Positions 142 to 2,841 of a stretch of DNA of 64,000 nt are shown piece after piece. A model generated the notes under the pieces. That model had not been told where the DNA came from. It saw nothing but the letters and a program-made list of their open reading frames with translations, and did not search any database. Origin of the DNA: a bacterium (GTDB taxonomy: Bacteria > Campylobacterota > Campylobacteria > Campylobacterales > Sulfurimonadaceae). A program made the translations under genes and the position numbers. How positions within the stretch are numbered: the stretch's first letter is position 1; the number at the start of each line of letters is the position of its first letter. Where the stretch lies: positions 1 to 64,000 of the forward strand of contig JAHJEG010000018.1 of the NCBI GenBank assembly GCA_018825665.1, written 5' to 3'.

Positions 142-327
142 GTTTTTCCGTTGTAATCAATAATTTATAACGAACTATATATTTAATACCTTATAAATAG
201 ATTAGAAGTATACAATAATCTATTTATTGATTAACATAATGTAAATTCTATTGAAATATTTTTTCTTCATTCTATTCACATAATACAATATATAATTACA
301 TTATGCGGTATTTAATTTATTATATTT

Positions 328-368: not shown

Positions 369-1649
369 ATGCAGATAATACAGAAATACTTTCCCCAAAT
401 TCAAGAATGTGTACGTGACTTCAATATAAGTATAGAAAGCATACAAATTGATACGAATAGTGAGCTTCTGTATACACACGCAATTTCAGAACATAAAAAG
501 ATGTTTTTAAAGCTTCTTCTTTCCACTTCTGAAGATGAAATTAAAAGTAATACAAAAGAGCTTGTACACTTTACCATTGAGCATGATATATCCTATTTGT
601 TCCTTTATAGCGAGCTAATTACCGTTGTACGTAAACTTCTGGGCAATCTTGTAGAAAAACACGATTTTGAGCATATCGATACAATCAATCTTTTTTTCTC
701 GGAACATGAAGATAGAATATCATCTTTATATCTCCAAAAATATTTAAATCAACTTCGTATTAAAAATGAGCTGCGACTGTCTCATATCTCATTAATGCCT
801 GATAAAAAGTTTATGGTGCATTTTGAGAGTCATATATTATGGGTGCTAAATCTTATTTCCTACATACAAAATAATGAATTCCATGATGATTATCCTGAGC
901 TTAACCCTAATCATTGTGGATTTGGAAAATGGATGAAAGAAGCAACAACTTCATACCTACTGTCCACCTCTCATTTTAAACTCTTGGAAAAACTTCATAT
1001 AAACTTACATGATTTGGCTGCGAATGTTGTCAACTATTGTAAGAATAAAGAGATCCGCCCTTCCACCCTTATTCACCTTATGCATAGAATTGATGACTAT
1101 TCGCTTGAAATAGGAAATGAGATCGCGTTTTTAAATGAGATAGAAGAGAGTGCAAAAGACCCTCTCACTCACCTGTTGACCAGGCGCTTATTTAACAAAA
1201 TAATGCTAAGCAAACTTGACATATCAAAAGCTACAGGCAGAGAATTCTCTCTTATGATGTGCGATCTGGATCATTTTAAACTAATTAATGATACGTATGG
1301 ACATGCTGTGGGAGATATCGTATTGAAGCATTTTTCAAGTGTACTGGAGCATACTCTTCGTAAATCAGATTATATTTTTCGTTTTGGAGGGGAAGAATTT
1401 ATGATTTTACTGCCAATGACGAATAAAGATGAAGCCCTTATGCTCGCACAAAAAGTATGCAAGGCAACTGCCTCTAAGCAGGTGGCTCTGGAAAATATAT
1501 CTATAAATTATACTGTGAGTATAGGTACTATAGCTATTATGACAGACAATGCGACCACTGTAAACCAGGATGTAGTAGACAAGCATATTACTCAAGTAGA
1601 TGAAAAGCTTTATCTGGCGAAAGAACGGGGAAGAAATCGCGTGGAATAA
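369..1649 (+). CDS. Diguanylate cyclase with CZB zinc-sensing domain
   Basis: A 426-residue protein predicted to make cyclic di-GMP from two GTP. The C-terminal GGDEF domain (about 265-426) has the active-site signature GGEEF at 340-344 and an intact inhibitory I-site RKSD at 331-334, five residues upstream, so product inhibition is expected. Residues about 145-235 form a CZB domain: H155, C183 (in HCGFGKW), H210 and H214 match the three-His/one-Cys zinc site of E. coli DgcZ, including the 27-residue C-to-H gap. The first ~145 residues are helical and not recognised. No membrane segment or signal peptide is visible, so it is probably cytoplasmic. By analogy with DgcZ, zinc binding would inhibit it; this is inferred. 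It is a single-gene unit convergent with rnpB. Confidence 0.88.
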   Translation: MQIIQKYFPQIQECVRDFNISIESIQIDTNSELLYTHAISEHKKMFLKLLLSTSEDEIKSNTKELVHFTIEHDISYLFLYSELITVVRKLLGNLVEKHDFEHIDTINLFFSEHEDRISSLYLQKYLNQLRIKNELRLSHISLMPDKKFMVHFESHILWVLNLISYIQNNEFHDDYPELNPNHCGFGKWMKEATTSYLLSTSHFKLLEKLHINLHDLAANVVNYCKNKEIRPSTLIHLMHRIDDYSLEIGNEIAFLNEIEESAKDPLTHLLTRRLFNKIMLSKLDISKATGREFSLMMCDLDHFKLINDTYGHAVGDIVLKHFSSVLEHTLRKSDYIFRFGGEEFMILLPMTNKDEALMLAQKVCKATASKQVALENISINYTVSIGTIAIMTDNATTVNQDVVDKHITQVDEKLYLAKERGRNRVE

Positions 1650-1724
1650 ATCAGGGCATACAAGCTCTTATATACTCATATTTTTTAATATTAGCATATA
1701 TAAACCTTCGAAAAATAAGAAGCT

Positions 1725-2044
1725 AGGTACAACTATAAGCCGAGTTTTGTCTCAATAGCATTAATCTACTATACCATTTACATAGTATCTCTAGCGAAAC
1801 AATAGCAATGTAAGACGCTAACCATTTGTTTCTTGCTGCCATGTTGGGTTTACAAGCTTTCTATATTGCTATAGAAACTGGTGGTCTCTTACTCCACCTT
1901 TTCACCTTTACTGCCCGTTAAAGCAGAAGTCTATTTTCTGTTGCACTTTCCCTCGTATCACTACGGCCATTAATTAAATGGAACACTGTCTTACAGCAGC
2001 TCGGACTTTCCTCTTGTAAAAACAAGTCACTATCTGTTGTACCT
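1725..2044 (-). ncRNA. rnpB: RNase P RNA (bacterial type A)
   Basis: The catalytic RNA of ribonuclease P, which trims the 5' leader of tRNA precursors. On the minus strand the 5' region contains GAGGAAAGTCCGAGCTGC (about 2000-2017), the middle has GGTGGAGTAAGAGACCACCAG-like sequence (about 1878-1900), and the 3' region ends with GACAAAACTCGGCTTAT (about 1736-1752); all three are universal conserved elements. The ends pair: AGGTACAAC at the 5' end with GTTGTACCT at the 3' end (helix P1), which sets the boundaries to within a few bases. Confidence 0.95.
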
Positions 2045-2049
2045 GCGAA

Positions 2050-2093: not shown

Positions 2094-2201
2094 GAACAGT
2101 TGTTAACTTTAACTACATCTACAAAGAACACTTGTTCACTTGGCAATAAGTTTAAATTAACACTTGTTCATATATAATACATATCTAATTAACAAGTGTT
2201 C
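2094..2201. promoter_or_regulatory. Four phased palindromic operator-like sites
   Basis: Four copies of the dyad (G/T)AACA-N2-TGTT(C/A) lie at 2094-2105, 2126-2137, 2158-2169 and 2190-2201. Their centres are exactly 32 bp apart, about three helical turns, so all face the same side of the DNA. The DNA between them is not repeated, so this is not a simple tandem duplication. The last two flank the -10 box of the adjacent TetR-type gene. They most likely bind that regulator; binding is inferred. Confidence 0.7.
2173..2178 (+). promoter_or_regulatory. -10 box of the TetR-family gene
   Basis: A perfect TATAAT 46 bp before the start codon. One palindrome (2158-2169) covers the -35 to -10 spacer and another (2190-2201) covers the start of transcription, a layout suited to repression. 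Confidence 0.55.
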
Positions 2202-2223: not shown

Positions 2224-2841
2224 ATGCCCGAAAATACGAAGCTCATTAAACATCATGGAACAAAAGAAAAAATACTAAAAGAGTCGTTTATATTGTTTTC
2301 CGAACATGGATATACAGGTACAAGTGTTAGAAAAATTGCTTCAAAAGTTGGAATTAGGGAGAGCGCCCTTTATAATCACTTTAAAAATAAAGAAGAGATA
2401 TTTCTCGAAGTCGCAAAAGATATTTTTTCTTCACCCTTCTCTTTTGAGAATGAGAACATCCATGAATTGGCTTTAAAAGGAAAGATGTTTCTGCATAAAT
2501 ATACGATGCAGTACAAGCTGCTTACATTCGACAAAAACAATGAAAGTATGTTTAGAATACTGCTTATAGAGTTATTGCAGAACAAAGAGCTTAGAGAGCA
2601 GTTTATGAATGAATTTCATAACAAAAATATAAAGCTTCTCTCTGAAGGTTTTTTTGTAATGATGCAAAATTCACTTATCAGATCATCAGATCCGATGACA
2701 ATGTCTTATGAATTTTTATCCACCCTATTCTACATAAGACTTCAAATTACTCTTATGAGATTTGATTCCTTATCCACAACACATCTATCTACACAATTTG
2801 AAAAACATGTTGATTTTTTTTGGGAAAGCATAAAAATTTAG
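2224..2841 (+). CDS. TetR/AcrR-family transcriptional regulator
   Basis: A 205-residue one-component regulator. The N-terminal helix-turn-helix (about 14-60) is typical: KEKILKESFILFSEHGYTGT followed by SVRKIASKVG and SALYNHFKNKEEIF. The C-terminal ~140 residues form the usual helical ligand-binding and dimer region, which is too diverse to name a ligand. The start follows a weak AAGG site 8 bp upstream. No gene on the same strand follows it, so its targets besides its own promoter must lie elsewhere. The four palindromes upstream suggest autoregulation. Confidence 0.9.
   Translation: MPENTKLIKHHGTKEKILKESFILFSEHGYTGTSVRKIASKVGIRESALYNHFKNKEEIFLEVAKDIFSSPFSFENENIHELALKGKMFLHKYTMQYKLLTFDKNNESMFRILLIELLQNKELREQFMNEFHNKNIKLLSEGFFVMMQNSLIRSSDPMTMSYEFLSTLFYIRLQITLMRFDSLSTTHLSTQFEKHVDFFWESIKI

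Follow-up and report, generated by a model that had tools for sequence, protein, structure and literature searches.

Introduction

How a cell holds the chromosome terminus and passes it on to FtsK, Xer and the divisome has been worked out for a small number of model bacteria, which use unrelated proteins. MatP, with its matS sites, and ZapT are DNA-binding proteins of the terminus through which ter is coupled to division (PMC3116907, PMC7188993). In Bacillus, the TetR-family protein RefZ, which has a few nearly palindromic sites (RBMs) at positions conserved in the genus, couples chromosome and division (PMC6657595). As for the target of Xer recombination, Carnoy and Roten listed a dif sequence in S. 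denitrificans and one in Sulfurovum NBC37-1; for other members they listed difH (PMC2731167).

Here, we describe a locus in a bacterium of the genus Sulfurimonas (Sulfurimonadaceae). The window, that is the whole 64-kb stretch of DNA analysed, was compared with the orthologous loci of other Campylobacterales. In sulfur-oxidising Campylobacterota, the only recognisable cluster of presumed binding sites of a conserved regulator adjoins dif. The sites are spaced by whole helical turns, and instead of serving as an ordinary gene switch the protein may have a part in marking or organising the terminus.

Results

An array of palindromes precedes a TetR-family gene

Four palindromes at exact 32-bp steps in front of a regulator gene had been reported in a preliminary description of this DNA. 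A pattern search of the window confirmed them, with perfect AACANNTGTT cores starting at 2095, 2127, 2159 and 2191. The array, of the form (G/T)AACA-N2-TGTT(A/C), occupies positions 2094-2201 upstream of a TetR-family gene (Table 1). Only seven perfect AACANNTGTT cores occur in the whole 64-kb window and four of these belong to the array, so that chance is excluded. By our own estimate, which assumes about three background sites per 64 kb, three more sites would fall precisely at +32, +64 and +96 with a probability around 1e-13.

Table 1. Features of the locus and their positions in the window
Feature	Position	Strand	Basis or remark
dif, XerCD type	229..256	-	matches published S. denitrificans and Sulfurovum dif
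dif, XerD arm	229-239		alignment to canonical dif
dif, centre	240-245		alignment to canonical dif
dif, XerC arm	246-256		alignment to canonical dif
rnpB (RNase P RNA)	1720..2045	-	Rfam RF00010, 219 bits; between dif and array
Operator 1, GAACAGTTGTTA	2094..2105	.	perfect-core pattern search; relatives' loci
Operator 2, GAACACTTGTTC	2126..2137	.	perfect-core pattern search; relatives' loci
Operator 3, TAACACTTGTTC	2158..2169	.	directly upstream of -10 element; pattern search, relatives' consensus
TATAAT, probable -10 of tetR promoter	2173..2178	+	same place in 46 relatives
Operator 4, TAACAAGTGTTC	2190..2201	.	perfect-core pattern search; relatives' loci
TetR-family protein, 205 aa, presumed array binder	2224..2841	+	PF00440; predicted TetR fold

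The assignment of the downstream gene to the TetR type also held, with a match to PF00440 (TetR_N helix-turn-helix) at E 5e-15 and 55 bits, against a cut-off of 24. An all-helical TetR fold was predicted (pLDDT 85, TM about 0.7 to known TetR proteins). The fold search placed this ordinary TetR fold near ligand-responsive repressors and gave no functional pointer. A search of 399 Campylobacterales genomes gave orthologs in 109, spread over six families; they form a sharply separated group, almost always with one match per genome, and most Campylobacterales families are without the regulator. The protein tree follows families f1, f4, f6, f10 and f18. Codon divergence of 0.18, 0.11 and 0.46 at positions 1, 2 and 3 points to purifying selection on the gene. 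Segments kept across families are a C-terminal FEKHVDFFW and MMQ...S-DP.

The array precedes the regulator gene in nearly all orthologous loci read, and we infer that the adjacent TetR-family protein binds the palindromes as dimers. Among the exceptions are two loci. In G193 (L203), a 1.46-Mb genome, the regulator is a pseudogene with four internal stops and the array is lost; no dif was found in this genome. The other, a Sulfurimonas contig (L167), carries a regulator gene of 77% identity but no array, and it has no dif within 4 kb.

One operator lies within the promoter of the regulator gene

The -10 element TATAAT comes directly after one operator. In Sulfurovaceae (f6) and in family f10, the operator fills the spacer of a TTGACA-N17/18-TATAAT promoter. 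Because an operator is located within the promoter spacer, the regulator very likely represses its own gene. Most of the remaining operators extend from the promoter toward dif, and those upstream of the promoter are conserved in the relatives' loci as well as the promoter operator is.

The spacers between the palindromes had been taken to be unrelated in sequence. This is mostly true, but spacers 2-3 and 3-4 hold conserved promoter-like elements, TAAG-N-TTA and ATATATAAT, in the consensus of 46 relatives. At about 2148-2156 of the window, TAAG-N-TTA is conserved in Sulfurimonas between operators 2 and 3, at the expected -35 position. Either a promoter element particular to this lineage or a site for another protein could explain it.

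Spacing of the palindromes follows whole helical turns

The upstream DNA of 147 distinct orthologous loci was used to compare the phasing of the sites. Nearly all of these loci contain three to five sites. Counting gaps under 60 bp between strict sites, 392 of 393 fell within 1.5 bp of two, three or four helical turns (22, 31-33 and 42-43 bp). The pairwise site distances over the same 147 loci gave a best period of 10.6 bp with phase zero. Therefore, the exact 32-bp spacing of the preliminary description is a property of the window, whereas relatives also use 31-34, 22 and 42-43 bp.

Sulfurimonas arrays are mainly spaced 32-31-32 or 32-32-32 bp and those of family f6 (including G291) mainly 42-43 bp, while the gaps of the G151 array are 22-22-22 bp. 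Mixed arrays were also found (43-31-32, 33-31-22, 43-33-43 and 33-21-32). On the protein tree, the modal turn number changed at least four times; single gaps shift too, nearly always by whole turns. When the same pair pattern was applied to viral contigs, the gaps were spread from 13 to 55 bp, showing that the search itself is not the source of the phasing.

The phased gaps together with the whole-turn switches argue that placement of the sites on the same face is under selection. The proposal that spacing itself is selected, on one DNA face, thus gained support from the orthologous loci, where the spacing is held to whole helical turns. Contact between neighbouring dimers is not implied by the phasing, because a gap can lengthen or shorten by a whole turn.

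The same palindrome was also observed every 21 bp, or multiples thereof, in three viral contigs (L309, L339 and L351). In L309 it sits, in frame, inside a protein-coding EQLF/EQVF repeat and is unrelated to the regulator. No regulator homolog was present in the viral contigs fetched.

The array is nearly confined to one locus

The genome search for the same dyad, proposed as a way to the regulator's targets, was carried out. It showed the array to be nearly confined to this locus and no regulon emerged. Of the 39 close pairs of sites counted in 14 complete relatives, 37 belong to this locus, and no second array of the same kind was found in the regulon search. Single sites in the window's own genome numbered 20, as compared to 49 for a reversed-pattern control, that is fewer and with no enrichment. 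Perfect 14-mers outside the array are few, and most of those examined are in coding sequence. Intergenic sites beyond the array occur upstream of unrelated genes in G113 (L249) and in the window's own genome (L071); a conserved pattern was not seen at these two sites. Degenerate target sites elsewhere in the genome are possible. A plasmid search for the regulator returned weak matches only, under 30% identity among the matches shown.

dif is the neighbour that is retained

rnpB does lie upstream of the array, as first described, but the tie between the two is not general. rnpB and the array are neighbours only in Sulfurimonas and part of the related genera; six complete genomes from other families have them 30-760 kb apart. 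Regulation of rnpB by the array was rejected as a conserved role because of this distance. Around 13 loci from other families, neither the downstream oor genes nor the GGDEF gene was present. The one neighbour retained in nearly every lineage is dif, a site that the preliminary description does not mention.

A diguanylate cyclase gene (GGDEF plus CZB zinc-binding domain; window 369-1649) lies between dif and rnpB. Such a GGDEF/CZB gene is present at one of the 57 Sulfurimonas loci read, and it is likely a recent insertion beside dif.

The classical E. coli-like dif pattern gave scattered matches only, and the published S. denitrificans dif, which is also carried by a complete relative of the same genus (G061), was used instead. 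In the window, the 28-bp dif reads GATTAACATAATGTAAATTCTATTGAAA on the plus strand and is the sole match in the genome; the array is located on its XerC-arm side. Two good matches to XerC/D-type recombinases were found in the same genome; with E values of 4e-67 and 3e-44, neither reaches the curated XerD cut-off. The orthologous locus is near half of the sequence in most complete relatives. GC skew of the window is uninformative because the contig begins at the dif end.

Sixty-five contigs carry both an XerCD-type dif and the regulator. On all 65, dif is upstream of the regulator, and on 64 it has the same orientation. The distance between them has a median of 779 bp and is usually 0.2-2 kb (within 3 kb on 57 contigs); on the eight outlier contigs, dif is 3-99 kb off with the side unchanged.

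Two further dif-like sequences were observed. In G080 (L041), what looks like a half-dif relic is found 721 bp ahead of the regulator gene. The intact dif of this genome stands 99 kb off with the side unchanged, a layout that insertion of a large element at dif could have produced. In G113 (L199, about 203,887), a second dif-like site is found ~0.9 Mb from the regulator-linked dif.

Families f4 and f18 use XerH/difH, with a single recombinase, and show the order xerH-difH-array-regulator: difH is about 160-250 bp from the regulator and xerH lies beyond difH. In one f18 member, the adjacent recombinase matches Helicobacter pylori XerH at E 2e-101. Since these difH families lie among XerCD families on the protein tree, on which the deciding deep branches are weakly supported, it seems that the dif type was exchanged while the array stayed. 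In f3 (G091), dif was not located, making this the one family with the regulator that lacks a located dif. No array was found beside dif in families without the regulator, in a search whose finder also missed a known array (L063).

Overall, array and regulator keep their link to dif in five families and under two Xer systems, with side and orientation unchanged. As the other neighbours vary, and as no array was found where the gene is absent or a pseudogene, the comparison of loci argues that dif, array and regulator are one unit.

Discussion

We propose that the window carries a conserved terminus module consisting of dif, three to five palindromic operators and an autoregulated TetR-family gene. 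Regulator dimers would line one face of the DNA and form a nucleoprotein platform, which would mark or organise the dif/terminus region. The platform might, for example, hold sister termini, or offer termini to FtsK, Xer or the divisome. In its manner of working it may resemble MatP, ZapT or RefZ. The phasing, the near-uniqueness of the array, the dif linkage and the promoter operator are read from the sequence, and the terminus role is what we propose from there. That an array and its autoregulated binder mark or organise the dif/terminus region is a reading to which we give about even chances. We advance more tentatively, as somewhat short of probable, the view that this is a dedicated terminus-marking system of Campylobacterota. 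In this view, a TetR-derived protein would assemble on one face of the phased array beside dif, whichever Xer recombinase is present, and would serve segregation and division in bacteria without MatP by organising or reporting the terminus.

The predicted ordinary TetR fold and the operator in the promoter, which fits a plain autorepressor, argue against a terminus role, as do the eight contigs with dif 3-99 kb off, the regulator gene of L167 with no array, family f3 without a located dif, the absence of the protein from most Campylobacterales families and possible degenerate targets elsewhere. The fold and the promoter operator would suit a TetR repressor of the ordinary kind that controls its own gene and has divergent sites at its other targets, its array merely sharpening autorepression; the proximity of dif would then be inherited, or would suit late replication and low gene dosage. 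However, such a repressor leaves aside that neither a second array nor an excess of single sites was found, that the neighbour genes differ between families while dif stays, even with a changed dif type, and that operators beyond the promoter are conserved equally with the one that fills the promoter spacer. We consider this explanation rather unlikely. Alternatively, the array could be an accessory sequence for Xer recombination, like those of plasmid cer and psi, at which recombination at the core site is controlled by DNA-binding proteins that wrap the DNA flanking it. The side and orientation relative to dif are fixed, in the difH families no more than about 100 bp separate the array from difH, and the accessory proteins of cer include the transcriptional repressor ArgR (PMC5357621). 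But cer accessory DNA is about 180 bp and next to the core, whereas the distance in XerCD families is 0.2 to 3 kb, with outliers to 99 kb, and rnpB or a gene intervenes. An accessory function in recombination therefore appears improbable.

A replication fork barrier near the terminus, with a role like that of Tus/Ter, would be in line with several tight sites that lie close to dif and, in most complete genomes, roughly midway along the chromosome. Yet the sites have no polarity because they are palindromic, and only three to five of them are present, on one side of dif; we regard a barrier as very improbable. The array could finally be what is left of a mobile element that entered the chromosome at dif with its own repressor, as dif attracts integrating elements and as G080 has a half-dif relic near the regulator with the intact dif 99 kb away. 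This scenario is already disfavoured by the vertical inheritance pattern: genomes nearly always have a single strong match, the tree of the protein agrees with the families and the gene is under purifying selection. Moreover, plasmids gave weak matches only (<30% identity among the matches shown) and the viral contigs fetched gave none. We judge that it has hardly any likelihood.

Returning to the proposed terminus module, its phased array amounts to a natural experiment, in which evolution used 22, 32 and 43 bp and shunned intermediate values. With this natural variation in spacing, the role of same-face assembly becomes directly testable.

No earlier report of a dif-linked array module was found in the titles and abstracts listed by searches of open-access literature, nor was a TetR repressor with helically phased tandem operators at dif found in that literature. 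As in autoregulated TetR repressors, the sites are palindromic and an operator overlaps the regulator's own promoter; to our knowledge, no TetR repressor has three to five operators locked to two, three or four turns and fixed to dif. The cer and psi sites with ArgR, ArcA and PepA also place a regulatory DNA-binding protein beside an Xer core site, but they are plasmid sites with accessory DNA at a fixed short distance and with different proteins.

The candidate described here is a single gene at a single locus, beside dif under two recombination systems and where MatP was not found: MatP (PF06303) had no match in 8 genomes, with a positive E. coli control. MatP and ZapT are proteins unrelated to the regulator. 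Whereas MatP has 23 matS sites over the Ter domain, no such scatter of sites over the terminus domain was seen here, the sites forming one compact array at most a few kb from dif. For ZapT no motif is known, in contrast to the palindrome array. SlmA shares with the regulator the TetR family and a 12-bp palindrome, and acts in division more than in transcription; the regulator scored 30 bits against the SlmA model (cut-off 120), and SlmA sites are excluded from Ter whereas the array is beside dif. Against the RefZ model, it scored 43.5 bits (cut-off 180). Like RefZ, the regulator is a TetR-family protein with a few palindromic sites at a conserved chromosomal position; the RefZ sites, however, are single, near oriC and on both arms, whereas here one array stands beside dif.
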